NCBI GenBank assembly: GCA_000961765.1
Contig: LADT01000002.1
Span: 1-64,000 of the forward strand
From: Clostridiaceae bacterium BRH_c20a
GTDB lineage: Bacteria > Bacillota > Peptococcia > Peptococcales > BICA1-8
Direction of reading: 5' to 3'
DNA: 64,000 bases
A model generated the notes under the pieces. That model saw only the letters and a list, made by a program, of their open reading frames with translations, did not search any database and was not told the origin of the DNA. Of this stretch, positions 4,295 to 44,432 are shown piece by piece. Position 1 is the first letter of the stretch; every line of letters begins with the position of its first letter. The translations under genes were made by a program, and so were the position numbers.

Positions 4295-4342
4295 TGTGCG
4301 TGTCAATGCGTGTCAACGTGTCAAGGGACGGTCCTTTGACAC
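4295..4342. repeat. GGGACGG palindrome with tandem GTGTCAA arm
   Basis: Three near-tandem copies of GCGTGTCAA/CGTGTCAA (4299-4324) run into a complete palindromic unit: GTGTCAAGGGACGG then TCCTTTGACAC (4318-4342). The reverse complement of the copy at 4799-4823 matches it at 24 of 25 positions, so the two face each other across about 456 bp. Confidence 0.65.
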
Positions 4343-4365
4343 TATTACTTTTTACTTCCCTTCTT

Positions 4366-4390
4366 GTTGCCTCTGAGTCTCAGTGGCAAC
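4366..4390. other. Strong hairpin between paired repeats
   Basis: GTTGCC-TCTGAG-T-CTCAGT-GGCAAC forms a stem of about 12 bp with one mismatch. It lies just inside the left copy of the facing GGGACGG palindromes. No T-run follows on the plus strand. It may be part of the element or the 3' end of the short minus-strand frame at 4473. Confidence 0.5.
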
Positions 4391-4472
4391 AGGTTTGTGT
4401 GACACCCTCTTAGCACAACCCCTCTGTTCAATCCCAAATAATCGGCTATTTTTCGAATGGACAGTCGAGTTT

Positions 4473-4688
4473 TTATTTTAGATTTACTATGCCTTCCTGC
4501 AGATAATACCTATTACAATCAATCTTTAAATAAGTAATTGACAAATTTCTGTCCTTTAAGTATTTTAGAAAATACCTAAAATATTCAATAGCTTTTATTT
4601 CTCCTGGCAAATAGGAAAATATTTCCAAGGTATCTACCATTTTATTCTTCTTATAATCCTTTATTAATAAATGACCATGGTAATCCAT
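4473..4688 (-). CDS. Hypothetical 71-residue protein
   Basis: ATG at 4688, 71 codons, with no recognised motif. It is rich in Tyr, Lys and Ile, with a central YLPGEIKAIEYFRYFLKYL that could be a helix. There is no ribosome binding site before the ATG and the frame stays open only a few codons upstream. It lies between the two facing GGGACGG palindromes, so it may be a fragment carried in or trapped by them. Confidence 0.3.
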   Translation of the reverse strand: MDYHGHLLIKDYKKNKMVDTLEIFSYLPGEIKAIEYFRYFLKYLKDRNLSITYLKIDCNRYYLQEGIVNLK

Positions 4689-4798
4689 TAAATAATATGC
4701 ATATATGTCAAAAACTTCTTCCTTTTCCTATTCCTTTTTCTTTTCCCTTCTGATATCTAATAGCTTCCCAGAGTATTCAATCATGTTTCCATTGCGCT

Positions 4799-4823
4799 GT
4801 GTCAAAGGACCGTCCCTAGACAC
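4799..4823. repeat. GGGACGG palindrome, inverted partner of 4318-4342
   Basis: GTGTCAAAGGACCGTCCCTA then GACAC. Read on the minus strand this is GTGTCTAGGGACGG then TCCTTTGACAC. A further ACTAGACAC follows, echoing the outer arm. It lies 16 nt beyond the stop codon of the sensor-kinase gene. Confidence 0.65.
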
Positions 4824-4838
4824 ACTAGACACAAAGGA

Positions 4839-5735
4839 TTATTCCTTAGGCAGTATTATTTTAATTGATGTGCCAATTTTTTCACCTGTTTTTATTTCCC
4901 ATGAACCTTGATGAATATCAACTATTTTCCTGCAAATAGCCAGGCCTAACCCTTGACGAGTTGTTCCTTTAGTAGTATTAAAGGGTCTGCCAATTCTCGG
5001 AAGGATATTAGGAGAAATTCCTGGTCCATTGTCGCTGACAGTAATTTTTATAAATGTTTTTTTGCTGCTAAGTTCTACATTGATTATTCCGTCCTTTTGG
5101 ACTTGGATTGCCTCCAAGGAATTGGAGACAAGCATCATAACCACTTCTTTTATAAGCTCCGGATCACCCTTAATTAAAGTGGGGTTCAATGGTATATTAA
5201 ATATTAATTTTACGTTAGGTAAATCTATTTCAGCGGCAAATAAGTTTTCAACCTGTTTTAATTGACTCCCAATATCAAAAACAACAAAATTGAATGCAAC
5301 AGTATTTGAAAGTTTAAGAAAATTACTTATTAAATTTTCGATCTGCTTTATTTCAACAAGCAAGAGTTCAATATTGTCTTTTAATGTTGATTTAGACTTA
5401 ATTTGTTCTAACTGGATAAATCCTTTTATAGAGACCAAGGGATTACGTATACCATCAGCAATCCCGGAGATTACTTCATTTAAGGTATTTTCATGTTCTC
5501 GTTTCTTTTCTGCAGCATTAATTTTCTTCAAGCGAATTTTAATTATAAAAAAATAAGTAAAAAAAGAACCCCAAAAGAAAAAAAAAGCTGGGATAATAAT
5601 ATTAATATCAAAAATTTCCAGTAATATTATTTTTTCATAAAAGGGATTAGAAATAATTTTATGGACGTTAAATTCCCCAATGAACATTACAAAGAAAATA
5701 AAACACGAGGAAAAGATTATTTTATACATATTCAC
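4839..5735 (-). CDS. Sensor histidine kinase lacking the phospho-acceptor His
   Basis: 298 residues. Two membrane segments (about 5-22 and 46-66) are followed by a dimerisation helix region and a HATPase_c domain with the N box (MMLVSNSLEAI), G1 (DNGPGI) and G2 (TTRQGLGLAI). In sporulation-type kinases the H box reads HEIRNPL.SIKGF; here it reads ADGIRNPLVSIKGFIQL (about residue 95), so the histidine is Asp and the following Glu is Gly. The codon is clearly GAT. ATP binding looks intact, but autophosphorylation on the usual residue is not possible. No response regulator is adjacent. Start ATG 5735, or ATG 5729, behind TAGGTG. It is the first intact larger gene after the decayed segment. Confidence 0.85.
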   Translation of the reverse strand: MNMYKIIFSSCFIFFVMFIGEFNVHKIISNPFYEKIILLEIFDINIIIPAFFFFWGSFFTYFFIIKIRLKKINAAEKKREHENTLNEVISGIADGIRNPLVSIKGFIQLEQIKSKSTLKDNIELLLVEIKQIENLISNFLKLSNTVAFNFVVFDIGSQLKQVENLFAAEIDLPNVKLIFNIPLNPTLIKGDPELIKEVVMMLVSNSLEAIQVQKDGIINVELSSKKTFIKITVSDNGPGISPNILPRIGRPFNTTKGTTRQGLGLAICRKIVDIHQGSWEIKTGEKIGTSIKIILPKE

Positions 5736-6180: not shown

Positions 6181-6729
6181 CTATTTACCCAGAGAAGACA
6201 GCACTGTAGTAATTACCCGATAAATTTCTTCCCGTTCCCGTTCATAATCTAAATTTAAATTGTGCTTGTATTCTCGGGATATGATTTCAGCTTGGGCCAA
6301 AACTAAAGTAAAACTAGCAGTTGATTGCAAACAGTGAATATAGCTATTGTCAAAGAAATTTATTTGTATCTGGTTCTTTTCCATAGGAGTACAACCTGAT
6401 ACCTGTTTTTTTACTACATATCCCCTAGAACCTTCATCTTTACTAAAGGGCTCACGGTACTTAAAAGGAACTAGGATAAGCTCCGGATGAAAAGGAAGGG
6501 GGGTAGAAGTTTTACGTCCTACCAGCTTACCATATTTGCGTTTTAATTGGGATAAATCCAAAGCGAAAAACTTGGCTAGATTTTTTAATACAGTATTGGT
6601 TTTATTAGCTATGATAATTTTTTTGCCACCTACCAACCAGGCTTCCGTACTATTACCTCCATTTTCATCATAAATCGGGAGTAAACATTTCAGTTCTTTC
6701 CAGTTGTTTTCCAATCTCAAGTCAGACAT
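6181..6729 (-). CDS. ComK-like transcription factor (distant similarity)
   Basis: 182 residues, no membrane segment. Residues about 62-105 (LVGRKTSTPLPFHPELILVP, then YREP and a GYV) and about 122-150 (INFFDNSYIHCLQSTASF) follow the layout of ComK, the competence master regulator of Bacillus: FFG...GRK...P.....P.N.I.LFP....RP...W...V, then V.F..G...L..S..SF. The match is by eye and distant, so DNA binding and a competence role are inferences. The ATG is preceded by AGGAGG. It is the only gene downstream of the cyclic-di-GMP riboswitch at 6858-6940 and is probably monocistronic. Confidence 0.55.
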   Translation of the reverse strand: MSDLRLENNWKELKCLLPIYDENGGNSTEAWLVGGKKIIIANKTNTVLKNLAKFFALDLSQLKRKYGKLVGRKTSTPLPFHPELILVPFKYREPFSKDEGSRGYVVKKQVSGCTPMEKNQIQINFFDNSYIHCLQSTASFTLVLAQAEIISREYKHNLNLDYEREREEIYRVITTVLSSLGK

Positions 6730-6813
6730 CTAATGTTACCTCCTTTTTTTTATTATTTTTTAAAGTCATCCTTTTATTTTTAGAGAAAAATACGTTTATA
6801 GGTGGTGGGGAGA

Positions 6814-6843
6814 CAAAAAAACCCACCCATACAAGGGCAGGTT
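6814..6843 (-). terminator. Riboswitch expression-platform terminator
   Basis: On the minus strand ACCTGCCC-TTGTAT-GGGTGGGT followed by seven T residues (two of eight pairs are G-U). It starts about 15 nt after the 3' end of the cyclic-di-GMP aptamer and lies about 85 nt before the ComK-like start codon, so it can act as a ligand-controlled terminator. Confidence 0.8.
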
Positions 6844-6857
6844 TGAACGTAATAATT

Positions 6858-6940
6858 GCTGCAACCAGGCTATCATAGTGGTGTGAACACCTTAGACCCT
6901 ACGGCTTTGCGCCCCCACTTTTCAATGGGTTTGCCATTAA
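6858..6940 (-). promoter_or_regulatory. Class I cyclic-di-GMP riboswitch (GEMM-I)
   Basis: The minus strand contains, in order, GGCAAACC (6935 downward), a short hairpin closed by GAAA-like CATTGAAAAGTG, GGGGCGCAAAGCC, GGTCTAAGG, a hairpin and AGCCTGGTTGC. These are the conserved blocks of GEMM-I: GGCAAACC, the tetraloop, GACGCAAAGCC, GG.CUAA, and the receptor/closing strand. A terminator follows at 6814-6843, so ligand binding should change readthrough into the ComK-like gene. The direction (ON or OFF) cannot be read by eye. I could not assign the single residue that separates c-di-GMP from cGAMP specificity. Confidence 0.88.
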
Positions 6941-7042
6941 AATTCCATTTTATTCAATACATAGGACAATCATTTATCAGTATCAAGATAAAAAATGTAA
7001 AAAAACAACTTGTCCCGATCACTTGTACTGGTTAATAAACTA

Positions 7043-7052
7043 ATTATACCAT
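7043..7052 (-). promoter_or_regulatory. Extended -10 promoter for the riboswitch transcript
   Basis: TGGTATAAT on the minus strand matches an extended -10 (TGnTATAAT). No good -35 is seen 17 nt upstream. Transcription would begin near 7036, about 95 nt before the aptamer. Confidence 0.5.
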
Positions 7053-7204: not shown

Positions 7205-8245
7205 ATGACAAAACTCGGAATTATTATTCTTACATTAATATCTCTATCCGGGGCTGCCGGTCCAGTCTTACTGACTGTTCCAGAGCAGCCTCCCACCTTT
7301 TCACTAGCTATCGGGGGCGATGTACTCTTGGCTGGTACTGTAGGAGAAAGGATTAAAATTCATGGTGTGAATTATCCCTGGGGAGATGTAGCACCATTTC
7401 TTCAACAGGCAGATCTGGCCATAGTTAATTTGGAAACTTCGGTAGCTGAAGGTGGCAAACCACAGGAAAAAACTTTTACTTTTCGTTCAAGACCAGAAAC
7501 CCTGGAAGGACTTAAAGCTGCGGGAGTTGATATGGTAGCACTGGCTAATAACCATGTCCTTGATTATGGCCGGGAGGGACTTGAGGAAACCTTGTCATAT
7601 CTTGCAAGATATGAAATACAGCATGCCGGTGCAGGTCTTAATGAGAAATCCGCTTATGCTCCGGCAATTAAAGAGATCAATGGTGCAAAAATTGCTTTTC
7701 TATCGTTCAGTATGGTAGTACCACCAGGCTGGCAGGTCGGCAATGATCATCCTGGAGTAGCTGTGGCTTATGGTCTGGATAAAATGCTGAGGGCTGTCAA
7801 AAATGCTAAAGATGCAACAGACTTTGTCCTTGTCTATATGCACTGGGGGATTGAGAGGCAGAGCACACCTAGTAATATCCAACAGGAAATAGGCCGTGAG
7901 CTAGTTAACGCCGGAGCCGATTTAGTAATCGGCAGCCATCCCCATGTCTTGCAAGGAATTGAATTCTACCGTGGTGTACCTATTTTTTATAGTTTAGGCA
8001 ACTTTGTTTTTACCAACCGTGGCCTTCAGACCACTGAAGATACTATCCTCCTTCTCATTGAAGCAGATAAAAATGGTGTTGCGTCCCTCCGGGCGGTGCC
8101 TTTTGAAATTATTAAAAATAAGCCCACCATTGTTGGAGGAAAGGATCAGGAAAGGATATTTAATAGGTTAATTAAGCTATCATCACCATTAGGTACAGAG
8201 GTCACCTTAGATGGTGAAATTTTCCCTATTGCTAATGTCCCTTAA
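7205..8245 (+). CDS. CapA-family (poly-gamma-glutamate synthesis type) metallophosphatase
   Basis: 346 residues from ATG 7205 (second of two adjacent ATGs, 7 nt after GGTGA); the frame extends upstream to 7085 but that part lacks a site. A signal peptide (KLGIIILTLISLSGAAG) is followed by a CapA/PGA_cap domain of calcineurin-like fold: IGGDVLLAGTVG, NLETSVAEGG, ALANNHVLDYG, VYMHWGIE and IGSHPHVLQG carry the usual metal-ligand Asp/Asn/His positions. CapA proteins take part in poly-gamma-glutamate export or anchoring, but stand-alone copies such as this (no capB/capC nearby) are of unproven function. It is transcribed divergently from the riboswitch unit. Confidence 0.85.
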   Translation: MTKLGIIILTLISLSGAAGPVLLTVPEQPPTFSLAIGGDVLLAGTVGERIKIHGVNYPWGDVAPFLQQADLAIVNLETSVAEGGKPQEKTFTFRSRPETLEGLKAAGVDMVALANNHVLDYGREGLEETLSYLARYEIQHAGAGLNEKSAYAPAIKEINGAKIAFLSFSMVVPPGWQVGNDHPGVAVAYGLDKMLRAVKNAKDATDFVLVYMHWGIERQSTPSNIQQEIGRELVNAGADLVIGSHPHVLQGIEFYRGVPIFYSLGNFVFTNRGLQTTEDTILLLIEADKNGVASLRAVPFEIIKNKPTIVGGKDQERIFNRLIKLSSPLGTEVTLDGEIFPIANVP

Positions 8246-8558: not shown

Positions 8559-9494
8559 TCAGATACTCCTGCCAAGATAGGATAATATTTCTTCTAATGC
8601 CTCATTTTCATTTCTATTATCCATTTGTACCCAGTATATCCGTTTATCCCTATTAAACCAAGTTAGTTGTCTTTTAGCAAATCTTCTAGTATCTCTTTTA
8701 ATTAATTCTACCGCTTCTTCGTATGTTAACCACCCCTCTAAATACATTACCAATTGTTTATAACCAAGCCCCTGTAATCCAGGTGCGTCAATTGGGACAC
8801 CATGCTGAAGAAGATTCTCAATTTCTGAAAGCCAACCTTCCTTTAGCATTTCATCTACCCTAAAATTTATTCTTTGATAAAGTTTTTCTCTAGCAAGATT
8901 TAAACCGACGATAATTAATTTATATTTAGTATTGTCCCCATTACTAGTAATTTGGTTTTGAGAAATTGGTTTACCGGTGGAGTAATAGACCTCTAATGCT
9001 CTGATAATTCTCCGTTGGTCATGGGGATGAAACTTTTGTGCACTAATCGGGTCAATTTCATTTAACTTAGCTAACAAGGTTTCTATTCCTTGCTCTAAAA
9101 CAATTTTTTTTAAGTCTGCTCTAATTTTTTGGCTAGAGTCAATTTCTGTGAAATTATAGTCATTAATTACTGAGTTTACATAAAGCCCCGTTCCTCCCAC
9201 TAACATGGGGAGCTTCTTTTTATTATAAATTTCACTTATCTTCTCTTCAGCAAGTTTTTTAAATTCTGCGACACTAAAACTTTCCGTTGGTTTTTTAATA
9301 TTTACTAAATGATGGGGAATCCCTTGCGCTTCTTCCGGTCTAATTTTAGCAGTACCAATATTCAAATACTTATATACTTGCATAGAATCAGCGGAGATAA
9401 TTTCCCCATTTATTTTTTTTGCAATTTCAATACTTAATGAAGTTTTGCCAACCGCCGTTGGGCCAATCAAAACAAAGAGTGGACGTCTTTGCAA
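8559..9494 (-). CDS. miaA: tRNA dimethylallyltransferase
   Basis: Transfers the dimethylallyl group of DMAPP to N6 of A37 in tRNAs reading UNN codons, the substrate for MiaB. P-loop GPTAVGKT near the N-terminus, ISADSMQVYK, and the DPISAQKFHPHDQRRIIRAL block are all typical, and length (311) fits. The start is set at TTG 9494: AAAGG is 9 nt before it, whereas the ATG at 9503 directly touches that site. It lies between the RsmJ-like gene and hfq. Confidence 0.95.
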   Translation of the reverse strand: MQRRPLFVLIGPTAVGKTSLSIEIAKKINGEIISADSMQVYKYLNIGTAKIRPEEAQGIPHHLVNIKKPTESFSVAEFKKLAEEKISEIYNKKKLPMLVGGTGLYVNSVINDYNFTEIDSSQKIRADLKKIVLEQGIETLLAKLNEIDPISAQKFHPHDQRRIIRALEVYYSTGKPISQNQITSNGDNTKYKLIIVGLNLAREKLYQRINFRVDEMLKEGWLSEIENLLQHGVPIDAPGLQGLGYKQLVMYLEGWLTYEEAVELIKRDTRRFAKRQLTWFNRDKRIYWVQMDNRNENEALEEILSYLGRSI

Positions 9495-9542
9495 AAAAAT
9501 CATCCTTTATTAGTTATTTGTTATTATTAACCAAATTATACT

Positions 9543-10322
9543 TTATTTTAACAAAACTCCAAACTTTACTTTGCTATATTTTCCACCGATAACCTCATGG
9601 ACTGATAAATTTTTTAAAATATGTCCATATTTCCATTCTTTAATTACAACTCTTCTTCTAGCAGCCCTTAGGGCATTTTTAATCACATCGTTAGTTAATT
9701 TATCGTAGTTAGCGAAAACCCGCAGACCATTAATACCATTTGACCTAAGTAAAGGAACATCAAACATAGGATCAAAATAAACTACATCAAAACTATTCTC
9801 AGATAGTTTTTCTAAATAATCTTCATAGTTTGAATTTATGACACTTATATTTCTCATAGCATTTTGACTATCTTTGCTGCCCTTTTGAGCGCTAACTAAT
9901 CCCCATTTTGTTACTGCATAGATAATAGGGCTGCTTTCAATTCCAACTATAGTACCTTTGGCTCCAATTATGAAACTTGCTACTATAGCATCATTTGCCA
10001 TCCCTAGTGTACAATCAAGAACACTGTCCCCTTCCTTAATATCCATAGCTTGAACCATTGGATCAAGCTCACCTTTTTTTAGCATCTTGATTCTAGGAAC
10101 AGCCATCCCAGGGTGAAAGAAATACTGATCATCTACAATTATCTTATCTTCCCGGACTATTAAGAGATGGGATAAATTATAATTACGTTTTATATTTTCC
10201 AAGCTTAGCTTATTTCGGGGTATATAATTAATCCCAATTTCTGTTCTTATCTTTTGGGCAATATCTATTAAATGCTCCCTGGGCTGGGAGGTGGTTATTG
10301 CTATTTTTTCAAGGTTAATCAC
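9543..10322 (-). CDS. RsmJ-like class I SAM methyltransferase
   Basis: 259 residues from GTG 10322, which overlaps the mutL stop by 8 nt and has GAGGTGA about 8 nt upstream, inside mutL. The SAM-binding loop reads VLDCTLGMANDA (about 112-123) and the catalytic motif reads YFDPMFD (about 189-195), as in RsmJ (16S rRNA m2G1516 methyltransferase, DUF548), which has DPMFP. The N-terminal segment (ITTSQPREHLIDIAQKI) is typical of the Firmicute members. Substrate is inferred from family. Translational coupling to mutL is likely. Confidence 0.8.
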   Translation of the reverse strand: MINLEKIAITTSQPREHLIDIAQKIRTEIGINYIPRNKLSLENIKRNYNLSHLLIVREDKIIVDDQYFFHPGMAVPRIKMLKKGELDPMVQAMDIKEGDSVLDCTLGMANDAIVASFIIGAKGTIVGIESSPIIYAVTKWGLVSAQKGSKDSQNAMRNISVINSNYEDYLEKLSENSFDVVYFDPMFDVPLLRSNGINGLRVFANYDKLTNDVIKNALRAARRRVVIKEWKYGHILKNLSVHEVIGGKYSKVKFGVLLK

Positions 10323-36461: not shown

Positions 36462-36514
36462 ACCGTTTTTAATCCCTAATTGCCTAATCCTTGCACCGAG
36501 GTTCAAAGGCTCAT

Positions 36515-36655
36515 ATTAGGCAGGTCTTCTGGCTCTCGGATCATTCGCAGCCTATGCCTTCCCTTACTTGTGTAAAGTGGCGTGTTTAGGCTTTGTTCCC
36601 GATTACAGCGGCGGGACCGCGTCGGATTTTAACCGAACTTCCCTTTTTCCTAATA
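36515..36655 (-). promoter_or_regulatory. Cobalamin riboswitch (minus strand)
   Basis: The minus strand carries, in order, GGGAAGTTCGGTTAAAATCC, GACGCGGTCCCGCCGCTGTAA, CGCCAC, GGGAAGG, GATCCGAGAGCCAGAAGACC and TGCC, i.e. the conserved blocks ending in the B12 box (36519-36534). TGCCTAAT at the 3' edge of the box (36515-36522) can pair perfectly with ATTAGGCA at 36481-36488, an alternative stem that would compete with the aptamer, and the terminator at 36430-36461 follows. Expected outcome: cobalamin binding reduces transcription of the 36363-to-22695 operon. Confidence 0.95.
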
Positions 36656-36677
36656 CTAATTTTATTTAATTATAGTA

Positions 36678-36706
36678 ATCTTAACAATTTTCCAAAAAAC
36701 GGTCAA
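36678..36706 (-). promoter_or_regulatory. Sigma-A-like promoter of the cobalamin operon
   Basis: TTGACC (36706-36701) and TAAGAT (36683-36678) with a 17-nt spacer. The start site would fall about 15 nt before the riboswitch. Confidence 0.75.
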
Positions 36707-43410: not shown

Positions 43411-44432
43411 TTTGCAGCAGGTATTTCCTCGGTATTATCTTCTCGAATAGGCATATTTAGTAACTGCTTAATCTTTAATTCTACAGCCTTACAAATGTCA
43501 GGGTTGTCTTTAAGGAAATCTTTGGCATTCTCTCTGCCTTGTCCTAAACGCTCATCTGCAAACGAATACCAGGCACCACTTTTTTTAATTACATCCAAAT
43601 CTGCCCCTAAGTCAAGTATACTCCCTTCCCGCGAAATACCTAATCCATACATAATATCGAATTCAGCTTGTTTAAAAGGAGGAGCTACTTTATTTTTTAC
43701 TACTTTAATTCGGGTTCGATTGCCAACCATATCTATCCCTTGTTTTATAGTATCAATACGTCGTACTTCCATTCGGATCGAGGCGTAAAATTTCAAAGCC
43801 CTTCCTCCCGGTGTTGTCTCAGGGCTGCCAAACATTATCCCTACTTTTTCTCTAATTTGGTTAATAAATATTACCGTCGTCCGTGATTTACTAATTGAAC
43901 CGGTTAATTTTCTTAAAGCTTGTGACATCAAACGAGCCTGTAAACCTACATGGGCATCACCCATTTCCCCTTCGATCTCAGCCCGGGGTACTAAAGCTGC
44001 AACAGAATCAACAACAATAACATCAAGGGCCCCACTACGTACTAATGCTTCTGAAATTTCTAAGGCTTGTTCACCTGTATCTGGCTGAGATACTAATAAA
44101 TTATCGATATCAACACCTAAGTTTTTAGCATACATAGGATCTAGAGCATGTTCAGCATCAACAAAAGCTGCAGCACCACCAGTCTTTTGAGCCTCTGCAA
44201 TAATATGCAGAGCAACCGTTGTTTTACCCGATGATTCAGGACCAAATACTTCTATTACCCGTCCCCTAGGTACACCACCAACACCCAAGGCGACATCTAA
44301 AGCTAGCGAGCCTGTGGGGATAACTTCTACATTGAGATTTGCTTGTTCGCCAAGTTTCATAATTGAACCTTTACCAAATTGTTTTTCTATTTGATTTAAT
44401 GCCATTTCTAAAGCTTTACGTTTATCGTTCAT
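43407..44432 (-). CDS. recA: Recombinase RecA
   Basis: 341 residues, complete. Walker [10 protein letters not shown] (about 67), [24 protein letters not shown] (Walker B), loop L1/L2 region [20 protein letters not shown] and [12 protein letters not shown]. Strand exchange, SOS co-protease. AGGGGG 5 nt before ATG. Preceded by a promoter and a LexA box. Confidence 0.98.

Follow-up and report, generated by a model that had tools for sequence, protein, structure and literature searches.

ComK activates competence genes and binds AT-rich K-boxes. In the window, by which we mean the whole stretch of 64,000 nucleotides analysed here, a gene that had been likened to ComK by eye follows a candidate cyclic-di-GMP riboswitch. 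This arrangement raises the questions of whether the RNA and the protein are what they appear to be, in which direction the switch would act, and whether c-di-GMP could gate a competence regulator directly. The features of the locus are as follows.

6857..6945, (-) strand: c-di-GMP-I (GEMM-I, RF01051) riboswitch aptamer (cmscan, 73.5 bits)
6845..6854, (-) strand: 3' strand of the predicted extended P1 helix, UAUUA-C-GUUC (fold constrained to the formed aptamer)
6836..6843, (-) strand: AACCUGCC, 5' arm of the terminator and putative antiterminator partner (free fold of the nascent RNA)
6815..6844, (-) strand: intrinsic terminator, AAACCUGCCC-UUGUAU-GGGUGGGUUU followed by a U run (z -4.3; kept in the second copy, on contig C35)
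6739..6743, (-) strand: ribosome-binding site GGAGG (sequence)
6181..6729, (-) strand: gene for a ComK-like, LytTR-fold putative DNA-binding regulator of 182 aa (homology, predicted fold, dN/dS 0.19)

A c-di-GMP-I riboswitch precedes the ComK-like gene

The window was searched with cmscan, and the minus strand at 6945-6857 matched RF01051 with 73.5 bits (E 1.6e-12 for the whole window), well above the gathering score of 35 and end to end over the model (positions 1-87 of 87). The GGCAAACC core, which is conserved in the c-di-GMP-I class, is retained, and an expression platform lies 5' of the gene, in which the terminator at 6844-6815 is followed by the ribosome-binding site and the open reading frame. 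In the constrained fold, the 5' strand of the extended P1 is predicted to be GAAU-UU-UAAUG at 6945-6935, and its 3' strand to stop one base short of the terminator. The top of P1 is weak in the window aptamer because the ligand-pairing C is followed by an A, where the C35 copy has a C. Judged by its sequence, the window RNA is indeed a riboswitch, of a class already known, and it presumably responds to c-di-GMP.

The terminator stem spans 6844-6819 (10 pairs, -15 kcal/mol), the U run continues to 6815, and the z score of -4.3 was obtained against shuffles. It is retained in the C35 copy, where one U-G pair has become U-A. Relative to the window aptamer it occupies +13 to +38, entirely downstream and without overlap. 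The sequence-only reading had placed the aptamer at 6858-6940 and the terminator at 6814-6843; both elements are real, and their coordinates were off by a few bases. It had also assigned the switch a single target gene, and the surroundings agree with this. The open reading frame at 6729-6181 is intact, the next gene on the same strand encodes a histidine kinase (5729-4839) and begins only after a further 450 nt or so, and a PGA_cap gene at 7205-8245 (+) is divergent. Thus, the leader should serve the ComK-like gene first, and transcription may read through from it into the kinase. A scan for sigma-70 promoters around the ComK-like gene was uninformative (7 sites against 5.9 expected). The window also contains a cobalamin riboswitch at 36502-36698 (-), with 98.1 bits.

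The regulator is a remote homologue of ComK

When the window protein was searched alone with HMMER, there was no credible match in Pfam, NCBIfam or PDB sequences, and it did not reach the PF06338 (ComK) cut-off of 22.3 bits. A relative that is 42% identical to it, L022, passes PF06338 with 23.4 bits over 143 of 152 positions, as do several other clostridial members of the family. Profile-profile comparison with Bacillus-type ComK gave a probability of 54.5% for a profile of nine close sequences (A1), 96.5% for thirteen, and 98.3% for the family profile of about 57 (E 2.1e-14, 146 columns), while twelve control comparisons, of four unrelated families with three profiles, gave 0.1-0.6%. Homology to ComK over the domain is therefore supported through relatives and profiles. 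The likeness first seen by eye, for which a profile comparison with PF06338 had been proposed, holds up as remote homology, and its two 'ComK blocks' match real conserved columns; the part that fails is a PF06338 match by the window protein alone. Because it has no such match in Pfam, we file the window protein, on the strength of these comparisons, as a remote ComK homologue and not as a ComK by the Pfam criterion. Among viral contigs, there was no member of the clostridial ComK-like family, only one ComK fragment.

A search of PDB sequences with Bacillus-type ComK found no solved ComK, and the AlphaFold2 model of the window protein (pLDDT 83.6) was therefore compared with the whole PDB. The six best entries (VIA-align) were all LytTR domains, including those of AgrA and ComE, with Z from 8.9 to 7.3, and the next row had 3.2. 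A Z near 8 is moderate, yet the six LytTR entries stand well clear of the rest, and the modelled protein has by this measure a LytTR-like fold. We found no match of the window protein to LytTR (PF04397) in Pfam, and sequence homology to LytTR was rejected, the profile comparison reaching only about 7%. The window protein is a putative regulator, and it would act by binding DNA.

A paralogue outside the usual cluster, duplicated together with its riboswitch

By profile, the ComK-like family was detected in about a third of the genomes sampled from the phylum (140 of 398), and each of the five genomes from the organism's own taxonomic family has a member. In the scan of genome contigs, a single-protein query found nothing and an alignment query found the family. 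In most relatives examined, the gene closes a cluster in the order DUF1659, DUF2922, YvrJ, N-acetylmuramoyl-L-alanine amidase and ComK-like gene, in which DUF2922, DUF1659 and the amidase were named from Pfam and YvrJ by eye; examples are L099:137-2031, L085:14867-18220 and L115:128-2115. With YvrJ, which we take to be holin-like, the cluster has the look of a cassette of the holin/amidase type that includes a regulator. One further locus (L089 of genome G030, 9192-10154) carries a full ComK-like gene followed in tandem by a second, partial copy.

The genome under study has one ComK-like copy in this usual cluster, on contig C24, which is 54% identical and lacks a riboswitch, and two copies with a riboswitch, in the window and on contig C35. 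The C35 aptamer (77.6 bits) lies ahead of the same gene. From the 5' edge of the aptamer, where homology begins, to the stop codon, the two DNAs are 85% identical, so that aptamer, terminator, leader and gene recur on C35 as one block. In the phylogenetic tree, the two riboswitch copies formed one clade with high support (100/99) and did not group with the C24 copy. These results, all drawn from sequence, show the window gene to be a ComK-like paralogue outside the usual cluster that was duplicated along with its riboswitch. A riboswitch search around 59 loci that match ComK or the ComK-like family found one only beside these two copies. Just upstream of the C35 riboswitch there is a remnant (L083:992-1134) that is 79% identical to the 3' end of the histidine kinase (window 4833-4975), a sign of duplication and rearrangement. 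The two contigs also share an apparently non-coding repeat, 84-90% identical (window 4317-4823 and L083:10155-10586), which looks like a small mobile repeat.

The C35 gene is broken by a single TAA at codon 135, and some class-I copies in C. difficile are without function (PMC6200980). It might therefore be supposed that the whole unit is a decaying duplicate, whose second copy was lost to the stop and whose window copy is perhaps on its way out. We consider this very unlikely, since the open reading frame, aptamer, terminator and ribosome-binding site of the window copy are all intact, and the dN/dS between the window and C35 genes is 0.19, a value that points to purifying selection on the gene.

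High c-di-GMP would probably turn the gene off

In the mechanism that we infer, which covers ligand response, OFF direction, antiterminator pairing, DNA binding and regulated genes, the c-di-GMP-I riboswitch would turn off transcription of a gene that encodes a ComK-homologous regulator with a LytTR fold. Binding of c-di-GMP would leave the aptamer and its extended P1 (up to 6845) compatible with the adjacent terminator at 6844-6815, and RNA synthesis would end upstream of the gene. When no ligand is bound, two segments of the aptamer, GGCA and GGUU, would pair with the AACCUGCC arm, the terminator would fail, and the regulator would be made.

Among class-I switches, Cd1, which is OFF, allows its bound aptamer and its terminator to form together, whereas in pilM, which is ON, one precludes the other (PMC9262584); in C. 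difficile, those class-I switches that function are OFF (PMC6200980). The window terminator begins only after the aptamer has ended, as it does in class-I OFF switches that have been proven, and a high level of c-di-GMP should therefore silence the gene. The pairing proposed for the unbound state appears in the free fold of the nascent RNA, where AACCUGCC is paired with two stretches of the aptamer, GGUU (6866-6863) and GGCA (6935-6932), and the same alternative is predicted in the C35 copy. However, this pairing was not above chance, since shuffled arms paired equally well in 172 of 300 cases for the window and 44 of 300 for the C35 copy; across ten of the genome's switches, the complementarity was marginal (combined p about 0.05). 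The antiterminator therefore stays a candidate, and the case for the OFF direction is made by layout and precedent.

In all, 13 c-di-GMP-I aptamers occur in the genome, and in ten of them the best terminator lies entirely downstream of the aptamer. The switches on C76 and C44 were flagged as overlapping, with larger and less certain hairpins. In front of the type IV pilus operon pilT-pilC-pilin (L081, contig C65, 8464-9712), the 3' strand of the aptamer doubles as the 5' arm of the terminator; this layout is of the ON type, the reverse of what the window switch shows. The same riboswitch and gene could accordingly be read as an ON switch in which c-di-GMP binding prevents termination: besides the pilT operon switch, Bacillus thuringiensis has a class-I switch, Bc2, that works in the ON direction (PMC6366702), and in folding runs the terminator, once fully present, also forms in the unbound RNA. 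We regard this reading as unlikely, because a terminator at +13 to +38 that shares nothing with the aptamer matches Cd1 and not pilM (PMC9262584). Taken as a whole, the OFF-switch explanation, with its riboswitch, its ComK-homologous LytTR-fold regulator and its duplicated paralogue, is in our view probably correct.

A role in competence is doubtful

In another reading, the regulator could be a true competence master regulator, through which c-di-GMP directly gates DNA uptake. Its homology to ComK speaks for this, and a role in competence or DNA uptake is conceivable because the genome encodes ComEA and ComEC, which lie in a single region and both pass their cut-offs, as well as a type IV pilus operon preceded by a c-di-GMP-I switch of its own. 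However, the usual neighbours of the ComK-like family are DUF1659, DUF2922, YvrJ and the amidase, not competence genes, and the nearest precedent is TfoY, which fails to induce competence in V. cholerae (PMC4858559). We thus consider a true competence master regulator a doubtful proposition. On contig C44 (L079 / L009), another c-di-GMP-I riboswitch (43787-43876) precedes an apparent agr-like set, comprising a membrane protein, a sensor kinase, an AgrB-like protein (by eye) and a LytTR response regulator; comEC and comEA lie some 4-7 kb away.

More speculatively, the family may consist of LytTR-fold regulators tied to the lytic cluster, with the paralogue here wired to c-di-GMP such that the low signal of cells giving up sessile life would start a programme of cell lysis or DNA exchange, convergent with the TfoY circuit of Vibrio; we hold this to be a long shot. 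What is well supported, at the level of sequence, is the wiring itself, a known RNA class on a newly described target, the remote ComK homologue. The literature searched, which leaves out most subscription journals, held no report of a riboswitch paired with a ComK-like gene. If the explanation is true, a second-messenger riboswitch would act directly on a ComK-family regulator. These results also draw attention to a widespread and little-characterised clostridial family that is predicted to fold like LytTR domains and keeps a conserved neighbourhood with an amidase gene; its members are candidates, open to test, for regulators of competence-like or lytic programmes in Clostridia.

Comparison with known systems

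The window protein shares with the ComK (PF06338) of Bacilli a collinear homology across about 146 columns, and its relatives pass the Pfam cut-off, whereas its clostridial family is separate, at about 12-13% identity, and sits in another gene neighbourhood. Its predicted fold is like that of the LytTR domains of AgrA and ComE (Z 7.3-8.9), but the protein has no receiver domain, contains an additional insertion and has a long helix at its C terminus. As an RNA device, the window switch resembles Cd1 (Cdi-1-3) of the flgB operon in Clostridioides difficile, an OFF switch that also combines a class-I aptamer with a compatible downstream terminator (PMC9262584, PMC6200980); Cd1 controls flagellar genes, whereas the window switch precedes a ComK-type regulator.

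To our knowledge, TfoX and TfoY are unrelated to ComK. If the OFF-switch explanation holds, the locus would parallel, with a different protein, the competence-regulator paralogue of Vibrio under a c-di-GMP-I OFF switch. TfoY, a paralogue of the competence regulator TfoX, is under the control of Vc2 and is made at low c-di-GMP; in Vibrio cholerae as in the window, a c-di-GMP-I aptamer lies in the 5' UTR of a relative of a competence regulator (PMC7371385, PMC4858559). Vc2 restricts translation, whereas the window switch has an adjacent terminator. Vc2-TfoY is the closest precedent, and it warns against assuming a competence role for the window regulator.
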